From a virus: DNA of 63,881 nt. This document shows, piece by piece, positions 835-57,528 of the stretch. The notes beneath the pieces were generated by a model. It saw only the letters and a list, made by a program, of their open reading frames with translations. It searched no databases and had not been told where the DNA came from. The stretch is taken from positions 1 through 63,881 of IMG/VR virus record IMGVR_UViG_3300017963_000283; one strand, 5' to 3'. Made by a program: the position numbers and the translations under genes. The stretch's first letter is position 1; each line of letters begins with the position of its first letter.

Positions 835-2406
835 ATGTCTGAAATTTGCAAAGTCTGCGAAAAACAGCCTTGTGAGTGTACGAGGATTGAGAAGTGGTTT
901 GACAAGGCACTCAAGTTTCCCTTGGCTGGTTGGCAAAGGGACCATTTGAAAGCGTTATTTGAAACAAAGAAAAATGGTCGCAGACAGTTTAGGACTTCAT
1001 ATTGGGCGTTGCCGAAAAAAAATGGGAAATCAAGTATAGCTGCTGGCATAGCTCTTTACGGGCTTCTTGCGGACGAAGAACCACATTCCCATGTCTATTT
1101 GGCAGCGTCTACCAGAGACCAGGCAACGATTGTATTTCGTCACGCAAAGCAGTTGTTGGAATCCAGCGAATTGCTGAAAGAGCGATGCAAGGTCATTGAT
1201 TCCACTAAGACAATTATTGACAGAGAAAACCCGACATCGTTTTTGAGGGCAGTATCTGCGGATGCGGGTACACAAGATGGGGTTGAGCCGCACTTCTGCA
1301 TCTTTGATGAGGTTCACAGGCAGAAGGGTGAAGCGGGTCGGGACTTGTGGAGTGTACTGAAGAAAGGCCAGCACACGCGGCGCGAGCCGCTGATGTTTGC
1401 TATTACGACAGCGGGTGTAGCGAGTGAGACGCCGCTTTGTTGGGAGTTGCACGAGTACGCGCTAGGTGTGAAGAATGGGGTGTTCAAAGATCCTAGTTTT
1501 TATCCCGTGATTTATTCCTTGGATGAGGATGCAGATTGGACAGACGAAGACAACTGGCGTGATGTTAATCCTGCTGCTGGAGATATTGAAAAAGAAGCTG
1601 ATAAGTTCAAGAACATCCAGTCCATGCGCGAGGAGTTCGAGATTGCCAGGCGCAGCCCGGCGGCAGAGAACGCATTTAGGCGGTTTGAGTTGAATCAGTG
1701 GGTGGCACAGGAAACGCGCTGGATTCAGCTGGCGGAGTGGGACCAGGCCGATCTGTTTGACATGCACTCGCTGGTGGGGCGGCAGTGCTGGGCCGGGCTG
1801 GACTTGTCTACTACGACAGATGTGACGGCGCTGGTGCTGGTGTTCCCGTTTGACGACCATTTCTGTGTGCTGCCGTTTTTCTGGCTGCCGGAGGAGACGA
1901 TCAACGAGCGGACCATGCGCGAGTCGGTGCCGTACAGGAACTGGGCCAGGCAGGGGCTATTGGAACTGACGCCGGGAAATGCTATTGACTACCGCTACAT
2001 CTATCAGCACATCAAGGAATTGACGGAGCTGTACAACTTCAAGGAGATAGCCATCGACCCGTGGAATGCGACACAGGTGAGCATTGATCTCGAGAATGAG
2101 GGTTATACGGTGGTCCCGGTGCGGCAGGGATATGCCAGCATGACTACGCCAAGCCGGGCATTTGAGCGGGCGGTACTGGCGCACAAGATCCGGCACAACG
2201 GGCATCCGGTGCTGCGCTGGATGGTGGATTGTGTCAGCTTGAAACAAGATCCAACAGGCAATATCAAGCCGGTGAAGCCGGACAGGTTAAAGAGCAATAA
2301 ACGAATTGATGGTGTGGTGGCGCTGATTATGGGGTTGGACAGGACGATTCGGCATCAGGCCGAGGCTGGGTTTGTGTATGAGCGGCGGGGGCTGAGGAGC
2401 ATATGA
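835..2406 (+). CDS. terL: Terminase large subunit
   Basis: This 523-residue protein is the packaging motor: an ATPase that translocates DNA into the prohead and a nuclease that cuts the concatemer. The ATPase half shows an atypical Walker A (PKKNGKSS, about residues 60-67) and a Walker B ending in FDE (about 157-159). The C-terminal half has the RNase H-like nuclease start GLDLSTTTD (about 321-329). N-terminal Cys residues (CKVCEKQPCEC) are a small addition. Length is normal for P27-partnered terminases. It overlaps the next gene by 4 bases. Confidence 0.93.
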   Translation: MSEICKVCEKQPCECTRIEKWFDKALKFPLAGWQRDHLKALFETKKNGRRQFRTSYWALPKKNGKSSIAAGIALYGLLADEEPHSHVYLAASTRDQATIVFRHAKQLLESSELLKERCKVIDSTKTIIDRENPTSFLRAVSADAGTQDGVEPHFCIFDEVHRQKGEAGRDLWSVLKKGQHTRREPLMFAITTAGVASETPLCWELHEYALGVKNGVFKDPSFYPVIYSLDEDADWTDEDNWRDVNPAAGDIEKEADKFKNIQSMREEFEIARRSPAAENAFRRFELNQWVAQETRWIQLAEWDQADLFDMHSLVGRQCWAGLDLSTTTDVTALVLVFPFDDHFCVLPFFWLPEETINERTMRESVPYRNWARQGLLELTPGNAIDYRYIYQHIKELTELYNFKEIAIDPWNATQVSIDLENEGYTVVPVRQGYASMTTPSRAFERAVLAHKIRHNGHPVLRWMVDCVSLKQDPTGNIKPVKPDRLKSNKRIDGVVALIMGLDRTIRHQAEAGFVYERRGLRSI

Positions 2407-5039
2407 ACCCGGCGGCACAAATTCGCTCAGAAATGCAATCTAAGTGGCCTGGAGCAACTGTATTCAAGCGCGGTAAGGGTTATTTGAAAATGGCTCATCC
2501 TTCTGTTGCTCGAAAGCGCAGTTTGGATACTCAGGTTGGAGCAAAGTACCACAAGGGTAATGGTCCCTGGACCGAAGCTGATGAAATAGACACTGCTTGG
2601 GTTGTTTCAAGCGGAGCGTGGGATTACGAGGTTACGAAAAACGACTTTTACTGCTATGTGCGCGATTCGGTTCCCGTGTCTTATCGTTACGTGGATGGAG
2701 TTACGTCTGGGGAGGTTGAACTTACGGTAGATCAGCCGCAATGGGTCAACGATGCTGGGGATAAAGAAAACCTTAGCATTTCGTTTTCTCAAGTTACTCC
2801 CAGCATCAATGATGACACCATACGCTGGAATGATATTGCTCCTGGCTGGGATATAGCGGTTCAGGCCCAAACAGCGCGACTGGCAAAGCGGGTCTATATT
2901 GAAAGTCTTGGTTCTCTTGGAGATGCTCCCACGGTTGGCGGTGTTGAGTATTTGTCTTTTCAACTGAAATTCCAAAAGACCTCTGGGTTGGATATTTGGA
3001 TTAACGGGGTTTTGTGGAACGAGAAGAACAACAATCCGCAGCAAACGGACGGCATTATAGAATTTAGAGATGCGTCGCAAAACGTGGTTTTTTCGTTTCA
3101 GGTTCCCTGGGCTGTCGATGCTGACGATTCTCAGCCTTCAGTGGTTCAGTATGTAAGAAACACAGGCAATCAACTATGGATAGAAGTGCGTGTTCCCTGG
3201 AGTTGGCTTCAGAGTGCGAATTATCCGATAGAAATTGATCCTACGATAGATGAACAGGTTGGGGCCAGTACCGACGATGCTTATGAAGACACAACCAGTG
3301 GAAGTGTGAATGTTACCGATACGAGAGTTCGTGCACCAGATAGTAATAGGGAGATGGCTGGTTTTCGTTGGACAACGGTAGATTTAGAATCCACAGATAC
3401 GATAGATGTGGCTTATTTTCAACTTCGTGTTTTTACTGATGCGGGTGATGATCCGTCGTGTGATTGGGAGGTAGAAAACGCCGATTCTCCCGCTACATTT
3501 TCCACTGCGTCCAATGATTTATCAAATAGGACTGTTTACGGGACTTCTGTTGCATGGGACGACACGAATATTATGACAGGTGGTGAAGGCTTTTATTCTA
3601 GTCCGTCTATCGTTTCCCTTATCGAGGCTGTTATTGCGGGGGCAAATTGGGATAACAATGATCCGATCGTGCTATTGGGTACATACAATGGGAGTTATAA
3701 CGGCGGTCCTCTTTCGTCGAGATCATACGACAACGACACCTCGCATGGAGCCAAGCTCCACATCGAATACACGGCGGGTGGCGGCGGCACACAGTATGAT
3801 GAAACAATTGCAGATAAGGCCGTCTTTTCTGATGCTACCTCAGCCATCCTGACCGGCACCATAGCACTAACAGATGCATATATAGCCGGTGAGACATGGG
3901 CCACAACTCTAGTAAACAGCCTCAGCACCACCGACTCGGCCAAGTTTGCAGAAACGCTGTCAACTCTACTGCAAGCTGCAGAATCGCTGGACGACAAAAC
4001 AGTGTTATCTGATTATCTGATAACTCAGTTGTCGGCCACTTCTACCCTGTTTGAAAAGATGGAAGTTGCTGATGCGCTGGCCACACAGCTATCAGGCAGT
4101 TCAGTTCTAGCAGAAAAGGCAATAGCTGCTGATGCGCTGGTGGCGCAACTATCCGGACTTATCAGTCAGAGTGACCTAGTCAAGTTTTCAGACCAGCTGG
4201 CCACCAGTTTGACGGGTGCTAGTGAAATATCAGATCAGGCCAAGTTCAGCGATGTGTGGGTGATTGAAACAGTCACAGCCATTGCGCTGAGTCTCAGTGA
4301 TGAGGCTAAGTTTGCAGATTCTATTTCTATGCTGTCCGATATGGTCTCTACGCTGCAGGATAAGGCGGTTATCAGCGATAGCTTGGCAACTGCTTTGCAA
4401 GGCGCACTCAAGACAACAGACAAGGCTGTCTTCGAGGAGCGGCTGCAGACCTACTTGACGGCTACGTTCAGCATCTCGGATACGGCTAAGTTTGGCGATA
4501 GCTTTGTCATAGATGTGGTGGCAGCTGGGGTTATTGAGGAAGCCATCTCGGAGAAGACCAGGCTGAGTGATTTATTTGTGACGGCTATGCAGGCGGCCAT
4601 GTCGTTGTCGGACAAGGCTGTCATGAGCGATGCTTTTAGTACCGTAATTGCTGCAGCGGGGCAGATTAGCGATTCCGTCAGCATGGGTGATAGTTTTAGC
4701 GCAGCGGCAACAAAGCGGCTGTCCATTACAAATACGGCTGTTTATAGTGATGTGTTGGATACGCAGCTGGTATCCAATATCAGCCTGCGGGAAGGTTTTG
4801 TATTAAGCGATGCTTGGGCAACTTACCTCAACGGCTCAGTGTCCTGGACTGAAGCTTTCACTGTTGGGGATAGTTTTGATGCTGCGACGCTGGGCGGAAC
4901 GGGGTTGCTGCTGGCCTCTATTCTACTGTCGGCATCGCTGGCTGCATCTGTGGCATCGTCGGCTTCTCTGGACATAACGGAAAAGTCTTTGGATGAGAGT
5001 CTAAAGGCGGGATTAAAGATAAATCGTAAAACGGTTTGA
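2403..5039 (+). CDS. Large repeat-containing structural or adhesin-like protein
   Basis: An 878-residue protein inserted between terL and portal, where phages usually have nothing or a small gene. Residues about 1-285 form an unrecognised beta-rich domain. About 290-455 resemble a DNRLRE/CBM96-type beta-sandwich (pattern SPSIVSLIEAV and HGAKLHIEY). About 465-850 are some 16 degenerate repeats of roughly 23 residues with a core like LSDKAVFSDS, followed by an Ala/Ser-rich hydrophobic stretch. No signal peptide is seen. A fibre, head decoration or host-binding protein is the best inference. Its ATG overlaps the terL stop. Confidence 0.7.
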   Translation: MNPAAQIRSEMQSKWPGATVFKRGKGYLKMAHPSVARKRSLDTQVGAKYHKGNGPWTEADEIDTAWVVSSGAWDYEVTKNDFYCYVRDSVPVSYRYVDGVTSGEVELTVDQPQWVNDAGDKENLSISFSQVTPSINDDTIRWNDIAPGWDIAVQAQTARLAKRVYIESLGSLGDAPTVGGVEYLSFQLKFQKTSGLDIWINGVLWNEKNNNPQQTDGIIEFRDASQNVVFSFQVPWAVDADDSQPSVVQYVRNTGNQLWIEVRVPWSWLQSANYPIEIDPTIDEQVGASTDDAYEDTTSGSVNVTDTRVRAPDSNREMAGFRWTTVDLESTDTIDVAYFQLRVFTDAGDDPSCDWEVENADSPATFSTASNDLSNRTVYGTSVAWDDTNIMTGGEGFYSSPSIVSLIEAVIAGANWDNNDPIVLLGTYNGSYNGGPLSSRSYDNDTSHGAKLHIEYTAGGGGTQYDETIADKAVFSDATSAILTGTIALTDAYIAGETWATTLVNSLSTTDSAKFAETLSTLLQAAESLDDKTVLSDYLITQLSATSTLFEKMEVADALATQLSGSSVLAEKAIAADALVAQLSGLISQSDLVKFSDQLATSLTGASEISDQAKFSDVWVIETVTAIALSLSDEAKFADSISMLSDMVSTLQDKAVISDSLATALQGALKTTDKAVFEERLQTYLTATFSISDTAKFGDSFVIDVVAAGVIEEAISEKTRLSDLFVTAMQAAMSLSDKAVMSDAFSTVIAAAGQISDSVSMGDSFSAAATKRLSITNTAVYSDVLDTQLVSNISLREGFVLSDAWATYLNGSVSWTEAFTVGDSFDAATLGGTGLLLASILLSASLAASVASSASLDITEKSLDESLKAGLKINRKTV

Positions 5040-18547: not shown

Positions 18548-20628
18548 TGGCCTTCGCAAAACTGAACTACCTCAAGATCGAGGACAACATAGCACGGCAG
18601 GCGCGGCTGACGGCAGTGGATCCGGCTGACGACTCGGTGGATCAGGCCGATAGCAACTTTCCGGTATCTAATATGCAGCTACTGCCGGTGTCCAAGCCGG
18701 GGCGCATCTGGAACCGGGTATCGTCGAGCGGGACCGGCAGCATGAATCTACAGGTATCGTTTACGGCGGCACAGAGCATCAATGTGATTGCGCTGGTGGG
18801 CCACAACTTGTCGTCGTCTGCCACGATCACGTTAAACGGCGGATCCTCTTTTAACCCTACCTCAAGCCAAGGCACGATGACCTGGCGGCGCAATGTGGCC
18901 TGGCATTATTTCAGCGCAGCCGAGTCTCACAAGTATTGGAACATAGAAATATCCGACGAGAAGAACGCCTATGGATTTGCGCAGATCGGCTATCTTGTCA
19001 TGGGTACACTAACAGAGTTGGACTTTGGCTACTCGCTGTCGTCCAGCTTTGCCGATGAGATGATCGGCTTGCGCAGCCAGACAGAGACGGCCGTGCCGAT
19101 CAACCGCCATCTGGCAGAGCGGTACCGGCTGATGCTGGAGTTCCAGCACGAGACAACCACGGACATCAGCACCTTGCGCTCGCTGTTTCTGGACTTGCTG
19201 GGGCCGGACGAGCCGGCGCTGTTTATCCCATACACCTCCGGCACTGAGGCTGTCTTTGGCCGCATCAATCAGGACAGCTTCCAGCGCGTCTACAGTTCAC
19301 CGGATACGGCGAGTGTGGCGGTTGAGTTGGTGGACGATCCCACGGGTGTTCCGGTAGTGGCTTACATGCCGGTGCTCAGGGACAACAGGGAGTTGCCGGA
19401 CGGCAGCAGCTTTACTAGGCAAACAGTAGCCTACTACAAGAATGAGCATCTCGAGCTGGTGGAGGTGGGCAGTGGTGTGCTGCGGACCGGCTGGGCCGGG
19501 AGTGTGGCCGGCATCAGTACCAGCAGCGGGCCGCACCATTATGACTATGACGAATATGGGACACTGCTGGAACCTGCGCGGACGAATGCGCTGAGCTATG
19601 GGCAGGACTTGAGCGTTTATACGCTAAGCGGTGTCACGGTGGCATCTGCGTCTACGGATGAGCCAAAGGCCACAGCAAGCGGGCTGGCATATAAGATAGA
19701 GGAAGCGCAAGCATCTGGGGCGCATCAGGTGTCATCTTCTGCCGTATCTTTTACGGCTGATACCGTCCAGGCTGTTGCACTGTTTTTGAAGGCGTCTGAA
19801 AGAACAGAATGTAAATATTACCTGGATGCGACAACGGGAACGAGTTATGCCGGAGCCACGATAGACTTGAGTGCTGCAACAATAGCGTCTTATGCTGGTA
19901 ATTCGGGCATATTACAAAGCGGCGCCATTGAAAGCTATGCAAACAGCTGGTACCGGGTCAACATGGGTGTACAGCTCGGCAGCGGCGTGACAAATGCCCA
20001 GCAAAGAGTATTGCTTGCCGATGCCACTAGCAGCGCCACCTATTCCGGTGTCTCCGGCTACGGCTTATATGCGTGGAATTTCCAGCACGAGGCAGACAAG
20101 TCGTTTTCGTCTAGTCCGATACTGACATCCGGTGCAACTTCTACCAGAAATGCCGATTTGTTATACGCGCCTTTTGATTTTGATACTCAGACCATGAGTG
20201 TGTATGTCAAATACATCAAAGCCAAGGTAGATACGGGAACGCAAGCACTAGTTCATATTGGAGGGGCTGCTGCAGCTGCTGATCCTCGTTTGGTGCTTTA
20301 TGAAACAGGTTCAGAGCAGCCGGGGTTCTCATATGATGACGGCATAAATTCACGGGCGATTACCGATACAACGGTGCTTGCTATTGGAGACACGGTGGAA
20401 CTATTGGGTGTTTTGTATCCAGACGGAACGGGCAAGGTTACAGTGTCTCAAAATGGTGGGGCAGCATCTACTTCCAGCGCATTTGCAGCCAATACATTTC
20501 CAGGTGCATTCAACGCTGATCGAATTTATATAGGATCTCAAGGTTCGACTGTTCAAGGGCCGTTTGTCGTCCAAGAAGTGAAGACATACCGAGGCGTCCA
20601 AACACTGGAGTTCATGCGTGAACTATGA
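18547..20628 (+). CDS. Tail-tip protein with C-terminal carbohydrate-binding-like domain
   Basis: 693 residues following the tape measure. Residues 1-270 resemble a tail or baseplate adaptor (PVSNMQLLPVSKPGRIWNRV, many aromatic beta segments). Residues about 330-690 start with LLEPARTNALSYGQDLSVYT, the signature of phage fibre domains of the head-spike/CBM type, and end with a LamG-like beta-sandwich (RIYIGSQGS). It probably positions or forms a receptor-binding element. It overlaps the next gene by 4 bases. Confidence 0.75.
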   Translation: MAFAKLNYLKIEDNIARQARLTAVDPADDSVDQADSNFPVSNMQLLPVSKPGRIWNRVSSSGTGSMNLQVSFTAAQSINVIALVGHNLSSSATITLNGGSSFNPTSSQGTMTWRRNVAWHYFSAAESHKYWNIEISDEKNAYGFAQIGYLVMGTLTELDFGYSLSSSFADEMIGLRSQTETAVPINRHLAERYRLMLEFQHETTTDISTLRSLFLDLLGPDEPALFIPYTSGTEAVFGRINQDSFQRVYSSPDTASVAVELVDDPTGVPVVAYMPVLRDNRELPDGSSFTRQTVAYYKNEHLELVEVGSGVLRTGWAGSVAGISTSSGPHHYDYDEYGTLLEPARTNALSYGQDLSVYTLSGVTVASASTDEPKATASGLAYKIEEAQASGAHQVSSSAVSFTADTVQAVALFLKASERTECKYYLDATTGTSYAGATIDLSAATIASYAGNSGILQSGAIESYANSWYRVNMGVQLGSGVTNAQQRVLLADATSSATYSGVSGYGLYAWNFQHEADKSFSSSPILTSGATSTRNADLLYAPFDFDTQTMSVYVKYIKAKVDTGTQALVHIGGAAAAADPRLVLYETGSEQPGFSYDDGINSRAITDTTVLAIGDTVELLGVLYPDGTGKVTVSQNGGAASTSSAFAANTFPGAFNADRIYIGSQGSTVQGPFVVQEVKTYRGVQTLEFMREL

Positions 20629-23417
20629 GTGACTTACTGGTAGAAATCGCGCTGGACAACGGCACGCTCTATTACTCCATCCACGGTACCTCCACCTCCA
20701 CGGCTTATTATGAAGGGCGTATCACGGGCATTGACAGCCTGAAGCGGACCATCCGGCCTGGTGGTGGCGTGTCGGCCATTCAGACGATTGGCTTTGAACT
20801 GGCGGACCAGGACGGCACACTGCGGACGCTGCATGAGAACCAGACCTTCAAGCGCCGGGCTGTCACAGTTAAGCTGGTAGACGACGAGGACAATGCTGTT
20901 ACTACACAGTTCGTGGGTGTGGTGGAGAGCGTAGCCGTCACGCCGGACTTGCTGCAGATAGAAGCGCGAGATGATTCCTGGGACGTACTGACGGAGAAGG
21001 TGCCGCTGCGAGTGTTCCCGGACATCTTTGGTGATATGCCGATCACTACACCAGTAGCACTGATTCCTATTGTCATCGGTACCGTATCCAGCACCAGCTT
21101 CGAGTCTCGGGGATCTATTCCGGCTTATCTGGTAGACCCATCCGTAACGGCGGCTAAGTACCGCTATGTGGCTGCACAGCATCCGCTCAAGTCTATTACA
21201 AAAGTGTATAGCCGGGGCAACGAAGTACCGTCTGGAGACTGGACTACAACCTATGTGGATACTACTACCAGCTACGGCACGGTCCGCATGACATACATTG
21301 ACGTTGACTACGACCTACGCGACGAAAACGGCGTGGATGATGTCACCTATGACGCCACCGGTATCACCGATGACAATTTGGAGTCCGGCAATTTGGAAAC
21401 GGATATTCCAGATTCACTCAAGCTGGTGCTGTCGAACCTGGACCAAACCTCGCCGCTGGTGGCAGCAGACTTCGCCAGTACCACTACAGTCAATGCGCAG
21501 TACACAGCACAATCTATCTCACTGTCTAATAACGGCTTGGCTGTGACCGAGTGGGGCATGACCTGGCTGGATGTGGTGGACATGTTTGCCGAGTCGTTCA
21601 ACTTGCAGTTTTTTGTCAACTCATCCGGCAAATTTAAGATGCGCTTTGATGATGCGCAGACCGGGACCAGTACCAAGACATACTTTGACTCACAGGACAT
21701 CATCCAGGGCAGCTTTTCTATCGATTCGCCCAGCGATAACGTATCCACGCTGGAGTGCTCCTACGCTTATGACTTTGCACGGGGACGTTTTACGGCCAGG
21801 AAGAGTTATAACGATGCTACGGAGCAGACTGCGCTGGGCCGGAATATCGAGGAAGAGGCTGAACTGCACGGCATCCGCTCCATCAACGATGCGCAGAAGA
21901 TAGCACAGATCAGACTGTTCCAGCAGCGCTCCAGTCGGGATGTGGTGTCATTTCGCATTCCAGCCAAGTCCTATCTAGAGCTGGGAGACTTTGTTTCCGT
22001 CACGCATTGGGCTGGACCGTCCAGCAATAACGTCGGCTATGATGAGACGCTGTTCTGCATCTACGAGTTGAACTTGACTGTTGATGGAAACGGGCTGTTT
22101 CATGACTTGCTATTGATAGACCATCCTGGGCTGACGGTGGGCTCGCCGGCGGATTCGGAAGAAACCAGGACCACGCAAACGCTGTCGCAGCGGTCGCCGG
22201 ATATTGCCTCTGATGTGGTGTGGACCTCTACGGATGCGGATACGGTCGCTTGGTCCGCCAATGATCTGAAGATTGGCGATGCTTTATACGAAACGATTTC
22301 TAGCAGCAATACGGGGAATATGTCTGCGAAGACATATGTTTATTTCGATCCGGATACCTCTGAAAGTACATATCAGGTAACCACCACGTTTTCGAGTGCG
22401 GTAGGAGGGCGAAAGGTTCTGCTGGCTGAATGTGTGAACGGAACCAACTCAGCAAAAATTAAAAATTACGTGGGCTGGGTTGAAACGGGCGTGGGTGGTG
22501 GTGGATCGGATATGCCCAATCAAGTTACTGAAGATGAGATTACAACACCGGACCTTGGTTCAATCAATGCCGATCTGGGGAGTATTACTGCCGGAACAGT
22601 AACGGGTGCAACGATTCGCACGGCAGCTAGTGGTGCGAGAATCCAACTGACTTCCAGCGCGCTTGAAGTTTATGATGCGTCGGTTAAGAGAATAGACATT
22701 CCGACAACTGCCGATCGAATAAACTTTTATCATACAGGTTCATTAAATGGCTTCTTTCAGGGGTCAGACGGAGTTGGCGGAATTGCGTGTTTTGGGAACT
22801 TGGCAGCACTTGACTCTGGTAACGGTATTAGATTGGTGGGTGGAGGTGATGGTACTGCCGGGATTGATGCTTTTGGAGGCTGTACATATTTGACAGTTTA
22901 TGGAAACTTGCTCCCATCTTCAACGGGAACGGATTTGGGCGGTTCTTCAAATAGGTGGGATTTATACGGCGAAACCATTTATGCTTATGGCAACATTCAA
23001 CCGTCATCTGATGATAGCGGATCGGTGGGTACCGCAAGCGTCGCTTTTGGCAATGTTTACGCCAATGAGGGAGACTTTGACTATCTTGATACTATAGATT
23101 TAGGATCTCTTTTATGGAAATGTCCAACCCGTCCAGATACGGATGATAGTTACAATTTTGGTCATCCTGATTACAGGTGGTCAACCATTTACTGCACAAC
23201 ATTAACCGAGGGAGACATTGAATTTGCAAATGGTTGGAATATAAGAGAGTTGGGCCTGCGCGACGAGAACAGGAATAAATCGTTTGGTTGGATTAGAAAA
23301 CACCATCCAGACGGACTCCAAATATCGGATCAAAGTGGTAAACTAGTTTTAGTTATTCATGGGAACGGGAATTTGTATGTTTCCGGTAAGATATTACCCA
23401 TGAACGAATTACCGTGA
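20625..23417 (+). CDS. Tail hub / fibre protein
   Basis: 930 residues. The first ~480 look like a tail hub (beta domains, RLFQQRSSRDVVSFRIPAKS, typical of siphophage central tail proteins). The region from about 640 on is fibre-like, with LGSINADLGSITAGTVTGAT and repeated GTDLGGSSNRWDLYGETIYA motifs, then a C-terminal segment. Such Gly-x-Ser-x-x-RW repeats are common in phage tail fibres. Base composition turns AT-rich in the fibre half, suggesting a separately acquired host-range module. Confidence 0.8.
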   Translation: MSDLLVEIALDNGTLYYSIHGTSTSTAYYEGRITGIDSLKRTIRPGGGVSAIQTIGFELADQDGTLRTLHENQTFKRRAVTVKLVDDEDNAVTTQFVGVVESVAVTPDLLQIEARDDSWDVLTEKVPLRVFPDIFGDMPITTPVALIPIVIGTVSSTSFESRGSIPAYLVDPSVTAAKYRYVAAQHPLKSITKVYSRGNEVPSGDWTTTYVDTTTSYGTVRMTYIDVDYDLRDENGVDDVTYDATGITDDNLESGNLETDIPDSLKLVLSNLDQTSPLVAADFASTTTVNAQYTAQSISLSNNGLAVTEWGMTWLDVVDMFAESFNLQFFVNSSGKFKMRFDDAQTGTSTKTYFDSQDIIQGSFSIDSPSDNVSTLECSYAYDFARGRFTARKSYNDATEQTALGRNIEEEAELHGIRSINDAQKIAQIRLFQQRSSRDVVSFRIPAKSYLELGDFVSVTHWAGPSSNNVGYDETLFCIYELNLTVDGNGLFHDLLLIDHPGLTVGSPADSEETRTTQTLSQRSPDIASDVVWTSTDADTVAWSANDLKIGDALYETISSSNTGNMSAKTYVYFDPDTSESTYQVTTTFSSAVGGRKVLLAECVNGTNSAKIKNYVGWVETGVGGGGSDMPNQVTEDEITTPDLGSINADLGSITAGTVTGATIRTAASGARIQLTSSALEVYDASVKRIDIPTTADRINFYHTGSLNGFFQGSDGVGGIACFGNLAALDSGNGIRLVGGGDGTAGIDAFGGCTYLTVYGNLLPSSTGTDLGGSSNRWDLYGETIYAYGNIQPSSDDSGSVGTASVAFGNVYANEGDFDYLDTIDLGSLLWKCPTRPDTDDSYNFGHPDYRWSTIYCTTLTEGDIEFANGWNIRELGLRDENRNKSFGWIRKHHPDGLQISDQSGKLVLVIHGNGNLYVSGKILPMNELP

Positions 23418-23440: not shown

Positions 23441-23752
23441 ATGAAGGTATTTTTATCGCTTTTTGTGCTTTTGAGTATTGCTTGTTTTGTTGTTGCTGAT
23501 CCCGGAGAAGGTTATATCATCAAGAGAACCATACCCGCCCAATTTGTTGATGGTGTACAGATATCGAGTGAGCAAATTGTTCACTTCAGACAAACATTGA
23601 ACTGGGGTTCCTGTACATCCTCTTGGGATTTACTGTTGACTGAAATTCATGAAAATGAAGCTCGGAAGCTGCGCAGGATAGTCATTGAAGAGGGAATAGC
23701 CGGTTTAGAGTTACGTGGATTTGAGTGTGTTTCTGTGATTTTAGTCGAATAG
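23441..23752 (+). CDS. Small secreted protein
   Basis: 103 residues with a clear Sec signal (MKVFLSLFVLLSIACFVVAD, cleavage near Ala19). The mature part is short, with two Cys and no known motif. Its place between tail fibres and the cohesin/dockerin genes suggests a periplasmic or surface role late in infection. GAGGGG site upstream. Confidence 0.6.
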   Translation: MKVFLSLFVLLSIACFVVADPGEGYIIKRTIPAQFVDGVQISSEQIVHFRQTLNWGSCTSSWDLLLTEIHENEARKLRRIVIEEGIAGLELRGFECVSVILVE

Positions 23753-23959: not shown

Positions 23960-24490
23960 ATGGTTATGGCTACTTTTCTCAGCCGCCTCCGGGCGGCTTT
24001 TTTATTGCCTGTTTTTTGTTGTCTGCTACAGGCACAGTCGGTGCAGCTGCAGTGGGATGCGAACAGCGAAGCCGATCTGCTGGGTTATCGCATGTACCGC
24101 TCTACTCAGTCCGGCTTCGGTTACCAGGCCATCGGTGAGATTACCTGCCCACCGGAGGACACGAGCTGCTGCACCTTTACAGACGATACCATTCTGCCAC
24201 GTGAGACTTATTACTATGTGGCCACTGCGTATGACAGCGAGGAACTGGAGTCCGGCTTTTCCAATGAGGTGAACTATACCGGCGTTTGTCCCGGTGATGT
24301 GAACGGCGATGGCAACAGGGACATCTTAGACGCCGGATTGATTCTGAATCACACCGTCAACCTATTTCCACTGACTGGGCTGGACCTGGAAGCAGCTGAC
24401 GTGAACGGGGATGGAGCCGTCAATGTCCTAGATGCGCAGCATTTAAAAAATCATATTGTAGGGACGGATCTTTTAGATGCTTGTAATTGA
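23960..24490 (+). CDS. Secreted FN3-dockerin protein
   Basis: 176 residues: signal peptide (RLRAAFLLPVFCCLLQAQS, about 9-27), a fibronectin type III-like domain (about 28-105, with DANSEADLLGYRMYRST and TYYYVATAYDSE), then a type I-like dockerin of two calcium loops: DVNGDGNRDILDA (113-125) and DVNGDGAVNVLDA (147-159), each followed by LxxxH or LKNH. Dockerins bind cohesin domains; the next gene encodes one. The gene overlaps that gene by 14 bases. Its first codons overlap a terminator hairpin. An unexpected protein for a phage; function inferred. Confidence 0.8.
   Translation: MVMATFLSRLRAAFLLPVFCCLLQAQSVQLQWDANSEADLLGYRMYRSTQSGFGYQAIGEITCPPEDTSCCTFTDDTILPRETYYYVATAYDSEELESGFSNEVNYTGVCPGDVNGDGNRDILDAGLILNHTVNLFPLTGLDLEAADVNGDGAVNVLDAQHLKNHIVGTDLLDACN
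23981..24003 (+). terminator. Terminator hairpin inside the dockerin gene start
   Basis: AGCCGCC (23981-23987) pairs with GGCGGCT (23992-23998), followed by a T-run to 24003. It lies within codons 8-15 of the FN3-dockerin gene, so transcripts from upstream could be cut there. TTG 24005 is a possible downstream start but would remove the charged part of the signal peptide. Confidence 0.75.
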
Positions 24491-25136
24491 AAGTAAGGCA
24501 GCCAAAGCAGGTGAGCAAGTCCAGGTCGGAATCTGGCTGGACGAGCGCACCGTCTACGGCTTGCAGTTTGACATCGTTTACGATCCGGCGGCACTGGAGT
24601 TTGTGTCCTGGGACAGCGCACTAGCAGCTACTACCAATCCAGAGACGGGCCGGTTTAATTTTGCTGTAGCCAGGGACGGGACACAACAGCCGCTGCCGGA
24701 GTATATCGGCAGTTTAGTTTTTAACGTCAGCGGTCCTTCTACATTATCTATTGTGGACGTAGTAGCCGGTGACTCGACAGCACAAGCAGTTTCTCTGTCC
24801 ACTCAGGACGGGGCAATAACTATTGAGGAGAACAACGTGAACTTACGAATCGAGTTTCAAGAATTTCAATCCGGGGTGCCCATTCCAGATAGTGCGGATG
24901 GTATCAGAGTATTCGAATCGGACGGGGCAGATCCTGCCACGGCTAATCTCGTGGTTCTTGGAGATATTGCTACGTTGGTTGGAACGTTTACCGTCTCATC
25001 GAATCGCGGGCAGAGGTGGTATTTCGGTGCTTATTTCAACGAAGGCGGCATTGGTCCAGCGGGCAATGTCACGGTATTCGACACCAACGTCCCTCCTACT
25101 GAAGCGCCTGGTGCGCCGACTGTAACTGTTGTCTAA
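24477..25136 (+). CDS. Cohesin-domain protein
   Basis: 219 residues. Residues about 5-118 follow the cohesin fold: AKAGEQVQVGIWL, VYGLQFDIVYDPAALEFVSW, IGSLVFNVSG and a closing DGAITIE strand. Residues 120-219 form a second beta domain (LRIEFQEFQSGVPIPDSADG) of unknown type. It has no signal peptide of its own. It overlaps the dockerin gene by 14 bases in the +1 frame, so it is either separately translated or joined to it by frameshifting. Cohesins bind dockerins, usually in cellulosomes or related surface complexes. Confidence 0.75.
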   Translation: MLVIESKAAKAGEQVQVGIWLDERTVYGLQFDIVYDPAALEFVSWDSALAATTNPETGRFNFAVARDGTQQPLPEYIGSLVFNVSGPSTLSIVDVVAGDSTAQAVSLSTQDGAITIEENNVNLRIEFQEFQSGVPIPDSADGIRVFESDGADPATANLVVLGDIATLVGTFTVSSNRGQRWYFGAYFNEGGIGPAGNVTVFDTNVPPTEAPGAPTVTVV

Positions 25137-25237
25137 TGAACGTGCGGCAACTTCTCGAATGGATCTGGTATTGGCTGCGCAGACGCGGCCACCGACCCAA
25201 AGAAGCACCACCAGCACCATCGGTTGAAAGAGCATGA
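25136..25237 (+). CDS. Tiny basic protein (33 aa)
   Basis: ATG shares a base with the cohesin gene stop, and the stop overlaps the next ATG (ATGA). The product, MNVRQLLEWIWYWLRRRGHR and a Pro-rich tail, is an amphipathic Trp-rich helix. Position at the start of the lysis cassette suggests membrane interaction. Too short for any family call. Confidence 0.45.
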   Translation: MNVRQLLEWIWYWLRRRGHRPKEAPPAPSVERA

Positions 25238-25704
25238 GAATCACAGTCCTGCGTCTCAACGGTGAGAAAGAAGACACCGTTGGCCTGCTGTTTGTGGACC
25301 GGCAGTGGTTCGGCCTGACTCTCGAGGATGAGCAGCGGCTGGTGAAGGTACCGGCAGAAACGCGCATCCCAGCCGGTGACTATGAGGTGGAGCTGCGCAA
25401 GGCGGGGACATTACACGACAGGTACAAAGATCTCTACTCCTGGCACGAGGGGATGCTGCATATTCGCAAGGTTCCCGGCTTTACGTGGATCTACTTCCAC
25501 CGCGGCGTCAGGGAGTCGCATTCGGCGGGCTGCATCCTGGTAGCGGATGGGCTGAGCCGGTCCAATATCGGCGGCAGGCTGGCAGAACTAGCTAACTCGG
25601 CTGAAGGCTACGAGCGGTTCTACCAGCACGTTCTGCCAGCAGCACGGGCCGGGGATCTGCGGGTAACGATCCAGGACGAGATAAAGATGGAGACAATATT
25701 ATGA
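25234..25704 (+). CDS. DUF5675-family lysis-region protein
   Basis: 156 residues matching the DUF5675 pattern found in phage lysis modules: GLLFVDRQWFGLTLEDEQR, IPAGDYEVEL, and GMLHIRKVPGFTWIYFHRGV followed by a Ser-His-Ser-Ala-Gly-Cys-Ile segment reminiscent of L,D-transpeptidase active sites (H...SxGC). A peptidoglycan-related activity is plausible but not shown. No other endolysin candidate was recognised in the window, so it may be the endolysin. Confidence 0.7.
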   Translation: MRITVLRLNGEKEDTVGLLFVDRQWFGLTLEDEQRLVKVPAETRIPAGDYEVELRKAGTLHDRYKDLYSWHEGMLHIRKVPGFTWIYFHRGVRESHSAGCILVADGLSRSNIGGRLAELANSAEGYERFYQHVLPAARAGDLRVTIQDEIKMETIL

Positions 25705-25854: not shown

Positions 25855-26358
25855 ATGGGATTTCTAGGCGACATTTTCGGCGGTGGCTTGAAAGGGGCAA
25901 TGGAAGGTGTGGATGTTATCCTGTCCCGGTTCAAGGGCAAGCCGATAGGTGAGCAGGAAAAGGCCGAGATCAAGCTGGCACTGGAGCAGTTGCTACAGAA
26001 GCGCGACTCGGAAATAGAGCAGACCATTCGCACTGAACTGACAGCCAAGGAGCGTATCTTAGTTGCCGAGTTAAGTTCGGGTGACAACTACACCAGACGG
26101 GCTCGGCCCACGGTTGTCTATTTCGGATTACTGGTGATTACCTATAACTACTGTGTCATCCCGACTATCCAGACATTGCAGGGGCTGATGCTGCAGCCGT
26201 TCGCGTTGCCCACGGAGTTCTGGATAGCCTGGGGCGGTATTGTCTCGACATGGGTGGTTGGTAGATCGGCTGAGAAGCGCGGCACCAGAAACAGGCTAGT
26301 CAGCAATATTACGGGTGCTCCGCTGGTAGGAAGCAGGCTCCTGGATGAGCCAAGCTAG
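25855..26358 (+). CDS. Holin of the 3-TM phage family
   Basis: 167 residues. The N-terminal GFLGDIFGGGLKGAMEGV, a charged helix and ELSSGDNYTRRARPTVVYFG before two membrane spans match the phage 3TM holin family. Such holins open the inner membrane to release endolysin. Starts one base after the small membrane protein. Confidence 0.8.
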   Translation: MGFLGDIFGGGLKGAMEGVDVILSRFKGKPIGEQEKAEIKLALEQLLQKRDSEIEQTIRTELTAKERILVAELSSGDNYTRRARPTVVYFGLLVITYNYCVIPTIQTLQGLMLQPFALPTEFWIAWGGIVSTWVVGRSAEKRGTRNRLVSNITGAPLVGSRLLDEPS

Positions 26359-45332: not shown

Positions 45333-45541
45333 GTTTTAACAAGCTGAATAGTGTTGATTGGAAACAGTACGAGACGCTCAGCTGTTTACACGCAAGCGGT
45401 AAGAAGATCCTTGAGCACATTCAGATGGGTGAAGCATTTGACGAGGATGAAGTGGATCGGTTTGGGGAATTGCTAGGGCAGCTTGGGACCATTATTGATT
45501 CGTTGCGGATTCCGTACATTAAAGGAGTTGGTGGTGCTTAA
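45329..45541 (+). CDS. Small acidic hypothetical protein (70 aa)
   Basis: ATG 45329 chosen for its ATGA overlap with the resolvase; the earlier ATG at 45311 lies inside it. Helical, acidic (MGEAFDEDEVDRFGELLGQL). No family recognised. Ends overlapping the PP-loop gene start. Confidence 0.5.
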   Translation: MSFNKLNSVDWKQYETLSCLHASGKKILEHIQMGEAFDEDEVDRFGELLGQLGTIIDSLRIPYIKGVGGA

Positions 45542-46358
45542 AGTGCTGAGCTTAGGTGCCGGTGTGCAGTCATCGACGGTGCTTTTGATGTCCTGTAAGG
45601 GTGAGTTGCCTAAGCTGGATGCGGCTATTTTTGCTGATACTCAGTGGGAACCGCCGTGGGTATATGAGCAGTTAGAAAAGCTGAAGAAAGAGTGTTACAC
45701 GGCTGGCATTAGCTTCTATCGGGTCAGTAAGGGCCATATTAAGCAGGATGCGTTGGAGTCGCAAGTTAGGGGTAAGGCTGAAGAGGGAAAGCGCTGGGCA
45801 TCACTACCCTACCGCACCAGACAGAAAGATGGCTCCATCGGCATGATTCGGCGTCAATGTACCAGCGAGTACAAGATTTATCCTATTGAGCGGAAGCTGC
45901 GTGAGTTGATCGGTTTGAAGCCGCGACAGCGAGCACCGAAAGAGCCGGTTATTGAGCAATGGTTCGGCATCTCCAGGGATGAAATATCCAGGATGCGCGA
46001 TCCTAAGCATAAGTGGCTCGTGTATCGCTATCCGCTGATTTTCGATATTCCAATGGATCGCAAGGGCTGTCAGGAATGGCTCAGGAGCAATGGTTACGAG
46101 ATCCCTCGCAGATCGGCTTGTGTAGCTTGTCCTTATCACTCCAATGCAGAGTGGCGGGAGATACGACAAGAGCCGGAGGTGTGGAAGGATGCGGTTGAGT
46201 TTGATCGGGCGATTCGGAAATGCGGTGGTACGCGTGGGGATATGTTTGTCCATCGAGATGCAGTACCACTGGATGAGGCCGACATAGATAGCGCAGAGGA
46301 CAGGGGCCAAGAAGTGTTTGGGTTTATGAACGAATGTGAGGGTATGTGCGGAGTATAA
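45534..46358 (+). CDS. PP-loop ATPase, PAPS reductase-like
   Basis: 274 residues from GTG 45534 with AAAGGAG upstream. LSLGAGVQSSTVLLM is a PP-loop (adenine nucleotide alpha-hydrolase) and CTSEYKIYPIERKLREL plus CVACPYHSNAEWREI are typical of the phage branch of CysH/PAPS reductase-like proteins. Members adenylate or reductively transfer sulfur; in phages the true substrate is usually unknown. It is not QueC-like. Start of the island, 0.4 kb before the TGT-like gene. Confidence 0.82.
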   Translation: MLKVLSLGAGVQSSTVLLMSCKGELPKLDAAIFADTQWEPPWVYEQLEKLKKECYTAGISFYRVSKGHIKQDALESQVRGKAEEGKRWASLPYRTRQKDGSIGMIRRQCTSEYKIYPIERKLRELIGLKPRQRAPKEPVIEQWFGISRDEISRMRDPKHKWLVYRYPLIFDIPMDRKGCQEWLRSNGYEIPRRSACVACPYHSNAEWREIRQEPEVWKDAVEFDRAIRKCGGTRGDMFVHRDAVPLDEADIDSAEDRGQEVFGFMNECEGMCGV

Positions 46359-46374
46359 GCCGGAGGAGCAGGAC

Positions 46375-46563
46375 ATGAAAAGCAAAGTAAGGGTGCTGGA
46401 GTTACGCATTTGCAAGCACGGGCTGAACGAGCGCTGCTGCGTGTACTGTCTCGGGCTGAGCCGGGACAGCCGGGAGCAGCGGGCGGTGTATGACTGTGAG
46501 CGTATTATGACTACGCTGCACACGGGGCCGGGGTATATCAAGCGGGGAGTGTGGAGTAGATGA
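46375..46563 (+). CDS. Small Cys-rich protein (62 aa)
   Basis: ATG 46375 with GGAGGAG upstream is preferred over the earlier GTG. ICKHGLNERCCVYC suggests a zinc site; the rest is basic. Unknown function. ATGA overlap with the next gene. Confidence 0.55.
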   Translation: MKSKVRVLELRICKHGLNERCCVYCLGLSRDSREQRAVYDCERIMTTLHTGPGYIKRGVWSR

Positions 46564-46748
46564 GGATTGTGCTTTTAAGTTGGAAGGAAACATCTTTTGA
46601 TCGAACGTCCTGGCATGAAGTATTTGCTTGGGTTCCAAAGATTATAGATACGAAAACAAGTGTTTATTTTGTCTGGCTGGAAACGGTAGAGCGTAGATGG
46701 TGCGATCCAGGTACGGGCGGTTGGGAATATAGGATGGTACCGAAATGA
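46560..46748 (+). CDS. Small Trp-rich protein, paralogue of 53372-53566
   Basis: 62 residues with FAWVPKIIDTKTSVYFVWLE, TVERRW and a final WEYRMV. The protein at 53372 has FAWKPVKVF...VQWVWLEWVERR...WEYR in the same order, so they are paralogues. AT-rich compared with neighbours. Overlaps the TGT-like gene by 4 bases. Confidence 0.55.
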   Translation: MRIVLLSWKETSFDRTSWHEVFAWVPKIIDTKTSVYFVWLETVERRWCDPGTGGWEYRMVPK

Positions 46749-47440
46749 CTATTCACTATCACGGTACTCCGATAACACCGAAGAATATCCTACAACTCCT
46801 TGCCGGACATCACTTTTGCGTTAGTTTTTCAGATCCCAGAGATGTGAAGACCTGTCATCAAATAGGCCAAAGTGTGATGCTCGACAATGGCGCTTTTACC
46901 TTTTGGACACAGGGAAAAGAAGTTGATTGGAATGAATACTATAAATGGGTTGATCCTTGGCTTGACTATGCTACAACCTGGGCGGTGATTCCAGATGTGA
47001 TTGATGGTGGAACGGATCTGAATGACTCGCTGATTGCGAAATGGCCGTTTGGTAAAAGAGGAGCACCTGTATGGCACTTAGACGAACCGTTGAAGAGACT
47101 TTGTGAGTTGGCTGAGAATTGGGACAAGATTTGTTTTGGCTCCTCTGGGGTGTTTGCCAAAGTGGGTTCAAATCCTTGGCAGGGGCGCATCGCTCAGGCG
47201 TTTGAAGAATTGAGCAAACAGTTCAAGCGGTTGCCGTGGATACACATGATGCGGGGCATGAATCAGTGTGGAAAGATTTGGCCTTTTGCCTCTGTGGATT
47301 CTACCGACATAGCCAGAAACCACCATAAAAGCAATGCGGTTGCGATGGCTGCGTCTTGGGACACGATCCAGTGTCCAGGTAAATGGATTCCGTATGAACA
47401 ACTAAAAATGACAGAAGTGGATGAGTGGCGGAATTATTGA
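46745..47440 (+). CDS. TGT/DpdA-like (deaza)guanine transglycosylase
   Basis: 231 residues. VMLDNGAFTFW (Asp47) parallels the DSGGF active-site loop of tRNA-guanine transglycosylases, and VIPDVIDGG (Asp84), VWHLDEPL, ICFGSSGVF, IHMMRGM and FASVDSTD (Asp185) follow the order expected for the compact phage DpdA group that inserts 7-deazaguanines into DNA. No zinc site is seen, which fits the small phage versions. No preQ0 synthesis genes (FolE, QueD, QueE, QueC) are recognised in the window, so any base would have to come from the host. Function inferred. Confidence 0.62.
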   Translation: MTIHYHGTPITPKNILQLLAGHHFCVSFSDPRDVKTCHQIGQSVMLDNGAFTFWTQGKEVDWNEYYKWVDPWLDYATTWAVIPDVIDGGTDLNDSLIAKWPFGKRGAPVWHLDEPLKRLCELAENWDKICFGSSGVFAKVGSNPWQGRIAQAFEELSKQFKRLPWIHMMRGMNQCGKIWPFASVDSTDIARNHHKSNAVAMAASWDTIQCPGKWIPYEQLKMTEVDEWRNY

Positions 47441-47441
47441 A

Positions 47442-48323
47442 ATGAGTTGGGTGGTCTTTCTCGGCGGTAGTGAATCGCACCGGCCATTTGTGGAAGCGGC
47501 ACGGCAGCAGTACCGTATTGTGATGTTTGACGTGGATGCGGCGGCGCCATGCCGGGAACTGGCAGACGAGTTTCAGGCTGTTAGCTGTCATGACTACTGG
47601 GAGATGAGTTCGCACTGTGAAATGCTGGACGGCATTGCCGGTGTCATGTCCCATTGCTCGGCAGTCCAGGCGATCAAGGCACGGGCGGAACTAGCTGAGG
47701 ATTTCGGCTTGCCGTGCTATTCACCATTGGTGGCCAAGGTGGTTTACAACAAAGCGAAATGGAAGGCTAAGTTGTCTAAAGAAGTAGATGAACTTGGGAT
47801 AGGGTGGATGGCAACACCGGAGTTCTGCAAGCTGGACGGAAACGACTTGGGCTACAGCTGGCATGGGCAGTCGCTGATGAAGCCGATTCATGGCTTTGGC
47901 GGTGATGGTGTGGTGCCGGGTTTCTTTGCCTGTAACTGGGAGTATCCGGGCTGGATGCTCGAGAGCTTTGTGGATGGTGCCGAGTACAGTATCAACGGTT
48001 ACAGGCGCGGCGGCGACATTGGCCTGCTGGCCATTCTGCGCAAGTTCTCATTTCGGGAATATCTAAGCGTGGCCTGGGAGGAGCGGTTTCAGCGCGTAGC
48101 ACAGCGGGTGCTGTACTGGCTAGGCATTAACCACAGCTTTTTCGCAGTGGATGTGATTGACGACGGGGAGAAGCTGTGGGTGATAGATGTGGGGCTGCTG
48201 CTTGATTCGGGTGTGGATGTGCTGTTGACGCGCTATGGCCGGGCGCCGTATGAGCTGGCGGTGCAGCTGGCTACCGGTGCTGAGCTGCAGCCGTGGGGAA
48301 CATTGGAAGCGGGGTGTTCATGA
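47442..48323 (+). CDS. ATP-grasp ligase 1
   Basis: 293 residues from ATG 47442, one base after the TGT-like stop. ATP-grasp features: NKAKWK, QSLMKPIHGFGGDGV (glycine loop) and MLESFVDGAEYSINGY. The usual final metal-binding E-x-N is replaced by VIDVGLLLDSG, so chemistry may differ from standard carboxylate-amine ligases. Overlaps the next ATP-grasp gene by 4 bases, implying the two act together. Confidence 0.78.
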   Translation: MSWVVFLGGSESHRPFVEAARQQYRIVMFDVDAAAPCRELADEFQAVSCHDYWEMSSHCEMLDGIAGVMSHCSAVQAIKARAELAEDFGLPCYSPLVAKVVYNKAKWKAKLSKEVDELGIGWMATPEFCKLDGNDLGYSWHGQSLMKPIHGFGGDGVVPGFFACNWEYPGWMLESFVDGAEYSINGYRRGGDIGLLAILRKFSFREYLSVAWEERFQRVAQRVLYWLGINHSFFAVDVIDDGEKLWVIDVGLLLDSGVDVLLTRYGRAPYELAVQLATGAELQPWGTLEAGCS

Positions 48324-49279
48324 AAAGCGTGCTGATGATCGGCAAGGGCATTCAGGAAGAGCTGGCAATACCGATAGTCGAGGCTGAAGGTTACCGCTGC
48401 TTGACAACGGACAGGGACAAGAAGCGCAAGCCGGACTGCCGCATAGACGGCAAAGACTACAGCGGCTTGGTTGGATGGGCGGATGGTGCTGGTGTGGCTG
48501 GTGTGTTTACTTTTACCGAAATGGTGGAGTCGATGGCACAGGTAGCGGCCAGGCTAGGTCTGCCAGGTGTTAATATCGAGTCGGCATACTACTGCCAGAA
48601 CAAGCACTTGGCTTATATGTGCTGGGCCGATCCGCTGCACAATATACCGCATCCAGAGGTCAAGTATGTCTGCGACTACAATGCTGAGTTTGTAGCCAAG
48701 CCGCTGCGGGGCTGTGGTGGTAGCGGTATTGTTGGCTTTACGGGTCCGGCACTGGTGCAGCAGAAAGTAGAGGGCACACACCACGACATCAATGGCCTGT
48801 TCTATGACCACCAGTTTATCCCGCTGGGCATCAGCGACCGCTTCTTCGATAACAACTTCAACGAAGTTGAGATACGCATTCCAACGGCACTACCAGAGGA
48901 CCGGCAGCAGGAGTTGTACGGGCTGGTAGAAAGCGGGGCTCGTGCACTGGGTATCGAATGGGGCCCAGTTAAGGCAGATGCTGTATTCGACGGACAGCGA
49001 TTTTATCTGCTGGAAATGGCACCGCGATTGCACGGGCCTCGTAATTCTCTAATGGCATGGCCGGCGGCTGGGTTTTCGCCGCTGATACCGGCCATTCATG
49101 TGATAGCCGGGGGTGCGCCAGTGGCGTATGAGGTGTGCTGTGACTGTAGGGTGATTGGGCAGACGATAACGGTGATTCAGGCGAGTGAATATGTAGAGCG
49201 TTATGTTGGGTGGCCGCACGAACTGATATATGCGCTGGATGATAGCTCGGTGTTCTTAATAAAGCAGGGGAAGCTGTAG
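48320..49279 (+). CDS. ATP-grasp ligase 2
   Basis: 319 residues from ATG 48320. NKHLAYMCW, FVAKPLRGCGGSGI, ALVQQKVEGTHHDINGL and LLEMAPRLHGPRN give a full set of ATP-grasp motifs, with the E-x-x-x-R of carbamoyl-phosphate synthetase-like enzymes. Such enzymes join a carboxylate to an amine, thiol or hydroxyl. Different from enzyme 1 by sequence, so not a simple duplicate. Confidence 0.8.
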   Translation: MKSVLMIGKGIQEELAIPIVEAEGYRCLTTDRDKKRKPDCRIDGKDYSGLVGWADGAGVAGVFTFTEMVESMAQVAARLGLPGVNIESAYYCQNKHLAYMCWADPLHNIPHPEVKYVCDYNAEFVAKPLRGCGGSGIVGFTGPALVQQKVEGTHHDINGLFYDHQFIPLGISDRFFDNNFNEVEIRIPTALPEDRQQELYGLVESGARALGIEWGPVKADAVFDGQRFYLLEMAPRLHGPRNSLMAWPAAGFSPLIPAIHVIAGGAPVAYEVCCDCRVIGQTITVIQASEYVERYVGWPHELIYALDDSSVFLIKQGKL

Positions 49280-49281
49280 CA

Positions 49282-49428
49282 ATGAGAGTAGGTAAGCGGG
49301 GCCGAAAGTGGGTTTATGTCGTTGCCGGGATTTGGCTGATGCTGTTGCCGTTCGGGGTTTCCTTTGAAGTTGATCCTATTTTTGTGGCCGGTGCGCTCCT
49401 GTTGTTGATTGGAGTAGAAATTGGATAG
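49282..49428 (+). CDS. Tiny membrane protein (48 aa)
   Basis: Starts two bases after the ATP-grasp stop; overlaps the methyltransferase start by 8 bases. Basic start (RVGKRGRKWV) then two hydrophobic spans. Function unknown; one of several such proteins in this island. Confidence 0.5.
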   Translation: MRVGKRGRKWVYVVAGIWLMLLPFGVSFEVDPIFVAGALLLLIGVEIG

Positions 49429-50602: not shown

Positions 50603-50660
50603 AATGAAGACAGGGCCAGGAATGCGGCCATGCTGGTGATGAAAAACGAGGGGAGATGAC

Positions 50661-50990
50661 ATGGTGAGATGGTGGGTATTTTGTCTAGGTGTTTGCTTGT
50701 TTATTTGTCCTGGCTGTGGAAGACGACAGGAACAATCAGCGCAGAGGGCAAAGGTTCAGCTAGAAAAATGTGAGTTAGGCGGAGATGTGATTTTTGAAAG
50801 GCATCGCCTCAAGAGAAGATCTGAGTGGAGCAAGAATCCCTGTGACTGTTATCTAGACGATGCGGACAAGTTTATGGGCGAATTAAAACGGAGAAATGTT
50901 GAAATTTTGAGCATAGAGGTGATTTATACCGAGTGTAATCACAATCAAGTCCCGGTTGAGTTTCTAATAACTTATCGGGAGAAAAAATGA
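50661..50990 (+). CDS. Small lipoprotein (109 aa)
   Basis: Signal peptide with a lipobox-like end (VFCLGVCLFICPGCG, lipid on the last Cys). The mature part has a Cys-containing segment (NPCDCYLDDADKFMGELKRR). Overlaps the transketolase start by 4 bases. Surface or periplasmic role; may be for superinfection exclusion or lysis. Not recognised. Confidence 0.6.
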   Translation: MVRWWVFCLGVCLFICPGCGRRQEQSAQRAKVQLEKCELGGDVIFERHRLKRRSEWSKNPCDCYLDDADKFMGELKRRNVEILSIEVIYTECNHNQVPVEFLITYREKK

Positions 50991-51769: not shown

Positions 51770-51893
51770 ATTGATTAACACATGGATTGAACAACCAGCA
51801 AGTAGGGCGGACGCCCTTTTTATTGCAGGGGTCATTTGCTTTATTTTTACACTTGCTCATCTGTTGGATCATGAAAGGCAGGAGAGGCGGTAA
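51756..51893 (+). CDS. Tiny membrane protein (45 aa)
   Basis: Overlaps the transketolase stop. One span (ALFIAGVICFIFTLAHLL) with a basic end. Inserted between the two transketolase subunits. GAGGCGGTAAATGGACT at its start is repeated before the next gene. Unknown. Confidence 0.45.
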   Translation: MDWFELINTWIEQPASRADALFIAGVICFIFTLAHLLDHERQERR

Positions 51894-53094: not shown

Positions 53095-53110
53095 GATTGG
53101 AGGTTAGATC

Positions 53111-53353: not shown

Positions 53354-53371
53354 TTGGGGACGGAGGGCAGG

Positions 53372-56699: not shown

Positions 56700-56703
56700 T
56701 TTT

Positions 56704-57526: not shown

Positions 57527-57528
57527 GC

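Follow-up and report, generated by a model that had tools for sequence, protein, structure and literature searches.

An overlapping dockerin and cohesin gene pair in a long-tailed phage, with counterparts on bacterial DNA

Introduction

Few known protein interactions are as tight as that between cohesin and dockerin, which is widely used in protein engineering; what the pairing does outside cellulosomes is, to our knowledge, largely unexplained. Bacteria and archaea are known to have non-cellulosomal pairs (PMC9012536), and phages have already yielded dockerin-like genes (PMC3558961) and one cohesin (record MW353175). The earlier dockerin-like gene, gene 40 of Vibrio phage VvAW1, was suggested to be of bacterial origin, and the passage on this gene mentions no cohesin alongside it (PMC3558961).

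The window analysed here is the whole of a linear IMG/VR virus record (IMGVR_UViG_3300017963_000283; 63,881 bases). It carries side by side a dockerin gene (ORF1) and a cohesin gene (ORF2), for which an initial annotation had proposed a phage-coded docking system. The locus raises the question of whether the two products dock onto each other, and whether such a system is the phage's own. No description of a phage-borne adjacent cohesin-dockerin pair with a cellular counterpart was found in the literature searched.

Results and discussion

The pair lies between tail-tip and lysis genes

The window is a genuine long-tailed phage, as seen from its TerL, portal, head protease, major head protein and tape measure. 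ORF1 and ORF2 sit 3' of a tail-tip gene and 5' of the DUF5675 and holin genes (Table 1), in agreement with the placement between tail fibre and lysis genes given by the initial annotation. Accessory genes, lom of phage lambda among them, occupy this position. No promoter-like site was found near the two genes, and a terminator-like site falls within the ORF1 start; this hairpin may be due to chance or may be a true stop for the preceding gene. A 33-codon ORF (window 25136-25237) shares 1 nt with the ORF2 stop and runs into the DUF5675 start, giving a chain of overlapping genes.

Two further regions were noted. An 878-aa ORF between terminase and portal (window 2403-5039) is unmatched in Pfam, PHROGs, NCBIfam and the phage collection. 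A cassette of cellular-type genes (window 45483-63040) contains PAPS reductase-like, queuine tRNA-ribosyltransferase-like (46745), ATP-grasp (48293, 55581) and methyltransferase genes, together with a split transketolase (50987, 52105), an SDR, an MptE/PseD-like gene (59723) and a trypsin-like protease. Its content suggests glycan or surface modification, and perhaps DNA modification as well.

Table 1. Features of the dockerin-cohesin locus and its neighbours (window positions)
Feature	Positions	Strand	Evidence or remark
Tail-tip/fibre-like protein, 930 aa, upstream neighbour	20625..23417	+	PF13550 and PF12219 just below cut-off
Second protein with signal-peptide-like start, 103 aa, upstream neighbour	23441..23752	+	no family
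ORF1, 176 aa: signal peptide, FN3-like domain, type I dockerin	23960..24490	+	PF00404 E=2.9e-12
Predicted Sec signal peptide of ORF1, residues 1 to about 26	23960..24037	+	hydropathy
Strong terminator-like hairpin and T run in the ORF1 signal-peptide coding region	23981..24005	+	
FN3-like domain of ORF1	24038..24280	+	via relatives
Dockerin calcium loop 1, DVNGDGNRDILD, residues 113-124	24296..24331	+	canonical spacing, invariant positions in relatives' alignment
Dockerin calcium loop 2, DVNGDGAVNVLD, residues 147-158	24398..24433	+	
ORF1/ORF2 overlap, 14 nt, ORF2 in +1 frame	24477..24490	+	TAG abuts the ORF2 ATG in the ORF2 frame
ORF2, 219 aa: cohesin and orphan C-terminal region	24477..25136	+	PF00963 E=1.7e-7
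Cohesin domain of ORF2, residues 2-116	24480..24824	+	acidobacterial cohesin profile E=4e-9
C-terminal region of ORF2, residues 117-219, Pro-rich tail at end	24825..25133	+	low model confidence
DUF5675, downstream neighbour	25234..25704	+	PF18925 E=3.2e-19
GTA_holin_3TM, downstream neighbour	25855..26358	+	PF11351 E=5.5e-18

ORF1 combines a signal peptide, an FN3-like domain and a dockerin

Dockerin_1 (PF00404) matched residues 111-166 of ORF1 with 47 bits against a cut-off of 22.9, and by its sequence the protein is a member of the type I dockerin family. Both calcium loops read out by the initial annotation are real. They belong to two near-symmetric repeats (12 of 21 residues identical) with 12-residue F-hand calcium loops, and the domain is flanked by Cys110 and Cys175. 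The signal peptide assigned to this gene was upheld by hydropathy and by an equivalent N-terminus in all five aligned relatives. The FN3 domain assigned with it is not significant in ORF1 alone, where PF00041 stays below its curated cut-off (weak fibronectin match, E=0.08); the region is called FN3-like because fn3 scores above its Pfam cut-off in two aligned relatives, L366 and L368. No catalytic domain was found in ORF1, whose sole match across the whole record was itself.

ORF2 begins with a complete cohesin and lacks a recognisable export signal

The cohesin-like fold proposed for the start of the second gene was borne out by sequence and by modelling. Cohesin (PF00963) matched residues 3-88 of ORF2 with 32 bits (cut-off 24.1), and an acidobacterial-only cohesin profile, which reported none of 2,800 shuffled control sequences, matched over its model positions 3-131 of 131. 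The domain is complete because this profile reaches the model end, though Pfam aligns only residues 3-88. The AlphaFold model of the domain (pTM 0.65, about 10 strands, the last 27 residues, 93-119, of low confidence) was computed from an alignment of cohesin-like sequences, which can lean it toward a cohesin. Its best PDB matches were cohesins, first 2jh2 from Clostridium perfringens (E=1.3e-5) and then cellulosomal ones, and the full-length ORF2 model again retrieved cohesins. The structure prediction set as a test of the second protein thus came out in favour of a cohesin. On its sequence and predicted fold, ORF2 is a member of the cohesin family (PF00963), a nine-strand jelly-roll beta sandwich. 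The C. perfringens glycoside hydrolase cohesin(-FN3) modules (PDB 2jh2, 2w1n), among the closest fold matches, resemble the window pair in that a cohesin stands next to an FN3 module; they differ in being parts of large secreted enzymes and share only about 20% identity.

Domain and homology searches found no relatives of residues 117-219, and the C-terminus ends resembling the start of a further FN3 domain. No signal peptide was found by hydropathy, nor any virion-attachment domain of known type, and when viral contigs, genome contigs and the phage collection were searched directly with ORF2, no relative emerged. The codon use of ORF2 resembles that of neighbouring genes, and its frame is open over 219 codons. 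A flavobacterial cohesin profile also matched ORF2 (E=1e-4); as support this match is partly circular, because the sequences of the profile came from an ORF2-derived motif.

The two frames are probably not joined

The initial annotation was right about the adjacency of the dockerin and cohesin genes, both above their Pfam cut-offs, and about their coordinates, 14-nt overlap and +1 frame. Its further suggestion that the overlap allows a fused product looks unlikely. A single FN3-dockerin-cohesin protein, made by a +1 frameshift or split in the record by a sequencing error, would fit the frame relation of the overlapping genes, and fused forms do occur, both in flavobacterial phages and in bacteria, the latter with the cohesin ahead of the dockerin. 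Against it, the TAG directly 5' of the ORF2 ATG leaves a frameshift window of four codons, in which inspection revealed no obvious slippery site (the P-site AAT is not slippery). Moreover, ORF1 stops at a terminal cysteine conserved in relatives whose proteins stop there too, and an overlapping split pair is the natural state in one bacterial genome (G322, see below). The slippery site and the open overlap of a programmed +1 frameshift gene are both absent, and a fusion is unlikely because of the TAG before the ATG, the lack of a slippery site and the conserved cysteine end. Sequencing error as the cause of a split was rejected, as deleting one base of the T run leaves the two frames unfused. 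Taken with both of its variants, the fused protein is highly improbable.

Similar pairs are present on bacterial DNA

The search of bacterial genomes for counterparts, which the initial annotation had proposed, was productive. It was made in a sample of 396 genomes of Acidobacteriota, the phylum of the MAG 'uncultured Acidobacteria bacterium LaPlata_bin-3695' (G016). Full-length relatives of ORF1 were present in G196 (53% identity, E=1.2e-40), in G244 (45%, three copies) and in G322 (44%). All five aligned relatives have a signal-like start, an FN3 domain and a dockerin followed by the conserved cysteine. In G196, the FN3-dockerin gene is directly followed by a gene for a signal peptide, a cohesin (E=4.5e-13) and cadherin-like repeats, and the pair adjoins housekeeping-like genes (gyrase- and tRNA-synthetase-like, as read from sequence). 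In G322, the FN3-dockerin gene overlaps by 4 nt a gene for a signal peptide and cohesin with three fn3 domains.

The window pair shares with these two cellular pairs the domains, the gene order and the terminal-Cys dockerin, and with G322 also the gene overlap. It differs in that both cellular partners carry signal peptides whereas the phage cohesin has none, and in that the cohesin proteins of the cells, at 607 and 906 aa, are much longer and bear cadherin-like or FN3 repeats. G266 and G170 each have a single protein with both cohesin and dockerin, and a further cohesin gene lies two genes downstream. The G266 protein has the C-terminal order cohesin-dockerin; its dockerin matches ORF1 at 51-53%, and no relative of ORF2 other than its cohesin (about 30-33% identity) was found in the sample. 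Cohesins as such are present in 163 of the 396 genomes. Similar-looking proteins of about 290 aa, of no family, lie between the cohesin-dockerin and cohesin genes in two genomes of the sample (L370:453-1328, L375:1252-2118).

The same kind of two-gene unit thus also stands on bacterial DNA, and the phage pair is therefore acquired or shared cargo rather than specifically phage-coded. The docking system of the initial annotation is to be amended in this respect; docking itself remains the most economical reading.

The pair is accessory in its phage

The closest phage by summed head and packaging similarity is L128 (G037; TerL 45%, head protein 53%). Neither a dockerin nor a cohesin module was found in it or in the other TerL relatives searched, and the pair is therefore accessory. 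By its place between tail-tip and lysis genes and its absence from the relatives searched, ORF1/ORF2 resembles a lom-position accessory gene (moron). An alignment search with TerL retrieved mostly Firmicutes prophages (42-46% identity) and one acidobacterial contig (46%), while single-protein TerL and MCP scans gave one or no relative. The host cannot be read from TerL because its relatives are at most 46% identical and mostly Firmicutes prophages; the link of this phage to Acidobacteriota is indirect.

Prophages of G244 carry the dockerin gene as well. The element on contig C21 has an integrase, a repressor, a major head protein, a tape measure (31% identical to that of the window) and an FN3-dockerin gene, and contig C58 holds a second, similar element with such a gene. 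No convincing cohesin was found 3' of the dockerin gene in the three G244 loci. One candidate, the frame L366:7427-8026 after a G244 dockerin gene, was rejected: it has no Pfam match, scored 13 bits in an unfiltered search and overlaps an FN3 gene.

These prophages bear on the idea that the exported ORF1 is the working part, acting on cohesin-bearing surface proteins of the host, for example to coat or mask the infected cell, with ORF2 as a remnant of the captured pair. ORF1 is indeed well conserved with its chromosomal relatives (53%), cohesins are frequent in the Acidobacteriota sample, and ORF2, which may be a decaying passenger, lacks a signal peptide and ends like the start of another FN3 domain. 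On the other hand, ORF2 keeps a full-length cohesin, a 219-codon open frame and neighbour-like codon use, and we regard this reading as unlikely.

A putative bridge outside the cell

Several observations suggest that the ORF1 dockerin is likely to bind the ORF2 cohesin, namely the adjacency of the genes, the recurrence of their order on bacterial DNA and the existence of fused forms. The two domains might instead have no affinity for each other and serve two unrelated accessory proteins as generic modules, one calcium-stabilised and one a beta sandwich. Domain presence alone leaves the implications unclear (PMC9012536). Such modules are also carried by many bacteria that are not cellulolytic. 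However, two modules, each uncommon in phages, stand here in overlapping genes whose order recurs on bacterial DNA, and the absence of mutual binding seems distinctly doubtful to us.

Any such binding would not make the pair a cellulosome. ORF1 and ORF2 use the same two interaction modules as the clostridial cellulosome, but without scaffoldin, carbohydrate-binding module or enzyme. No scaffoldin with several cohesins was found, the whole record holding one cohesin, and no glycoside hydrolase was found among the window ORFs scanned; there is no sign of a cellulosome-making host. With the bacterial and archaeal modules that likewise occur outside cellulosomes (PMC9012536) the pair shares this setting, and it differs from them in being phage-borne and in having one partner without export signal.

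Most likely, to judge from the bacterial counterparts, the phage acquired and partly remodelled a bacterial surface-docking pair. In the specific form that we favour, and to which we give an even chance, the pair would be accessory cargo derived from an acidobacterial two-gene docking unit, and exported ORF1 would dock ORF2 into a bridge outside the cell. ORF1 would leave the cell through Sec and have its shape held by calcium. ORF2 has no signal peptide and would therefore be kept inside until lysis or be carried on the virion, so that the partners would meet at lysis or at the virion. The dockerin of secreted ORF1 and the cohesin of released or virion-borne ORF2 would then form an FN3-Doc:Coh-X bridge outside the cell. 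Before lysis, ORF1 could dock onto surface proteins of the host that bear cohesins. Several points speak against this scheme: ORF2 lacks the signal peptide of its cellular counterparts, its C-terminal half has no relatives, its cohesin is only about 30% identical to the nearest relative found, the TerL relatives are mostly from Firmicutes, a hairpin lies in the ORF1 start, and the G244 dockerin genes have no convincing cohesin gene after them.

The missing signal peptide would also suit a packaged protein. ORF2 could be a virion protein whose cohesin grips dockerins on the host surface for receptor binding, with exported ORF1 blocking the site and limiting superinfection. Its gene comes right after the tail genes, and other phages have dockerins in tail-like proteins (L202, L205). 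Yet ORF2 shows no known virion-attachment domain and the phages related by TerL are without cohesin, and we hold this role to be quite improbable.

Under the favoured scheme of an acquired docking pair, a short phage-borne unit shared with Acidobacteriota offers a minimal system for testing such pairs on a bacterial surface, and it suggests that phages move docking pairs between cells.

Cohesin and dockerin modules in other phages

A dockerin scan of viral contigs returned 15 loci, including lysin-like and tail-like proteins. A match to ORF1 in L002 proved to be merely the FN3 domain of a tail protein, and a cohesin-dockerin-cohesin ORF (G010) was rejected as a phage case, being open at the contig end and probably in host flank.

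The 251-kb phage G006 (IMGVR_UViG_3300021431_004083, 251,549 bp; L208, L209, L210, L211, L223) encodes a cohesin (L208:7668-8717) with a signal peptide and a C-terminal membrane anchor, alongside at least seven dockerin ORFs, of which six have signal-like starts. From its sequence, this jumbo phage looks like the bearer of a complete phage-coded surface docking set. FN3-, leucine-rich- or CAP-like parts also occur among its dockerin ORFs.

A motif scan, for which the motif was taken from ORF2, gave about 68 cohesin-like domains, carried by proteins that freshwater-type phages export (L224-L303). PF00963 matched all 50 records tested at E<=0.01 (19 above cut-off), while dockerin matches in these records were all below cut-off. 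Each of the 49 full-length proteins has a signal-like start, and 23 show a type IX-like tail by pattern. In Flavobacterium phage vB_FspM_immuto, gp15 (record MW353175) is annotated as a cohesin protein and carries Por_Secre_tail; gp14 and gp15 are collinear with one fused protein in relatives. In flavobacterial phages the cohesin/dockerin-like unit can thus be one fused gene or two adjacent ones, a pattern that favours a joint function. Immuto and the related freshwater phages share with the window phage-encoded adjacent cohesin/dockerin-like genes; gp15 differs by its own signal peptide and Por secretion tail, and the domains are only distantly related to those of the window. In the same phage, gp13 combines a C-type lectin with a dockerin-like loop, and gp13, gp14 and gp15 (L343, 9747-12642) look like a putative anchored chain.

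The jumbo phage and flavobacterial cases are not homologous operons of ORF1/ORF2, and represent a repeated use of these modules by phages. It is conceivable, if on the unlikely side, that phages of several unrelated groups each have a cohesin-dockerin docking system of their own at work on infected cells or on virions. A virion-borne cohesin would then meet its exported dockerin partner in the window phage, the jumbo phage would anchor one cohesin in the membrane and export several dockerin proteins, and the flavobacterial phages would place cohesins on the surface via host type IX secretion. The parallel cases hint at surface docking as a strategy of phages more broadly, undescribed as such in the literature searched.

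Further dockerins lie at or near the ends of cell-wall-hydrolase-like and tail-like proteins (L200, L203, L204, L207, L202, L205). The L200 and L201 genes contain in-frame TAG codons, and these phages are possibly recoded.
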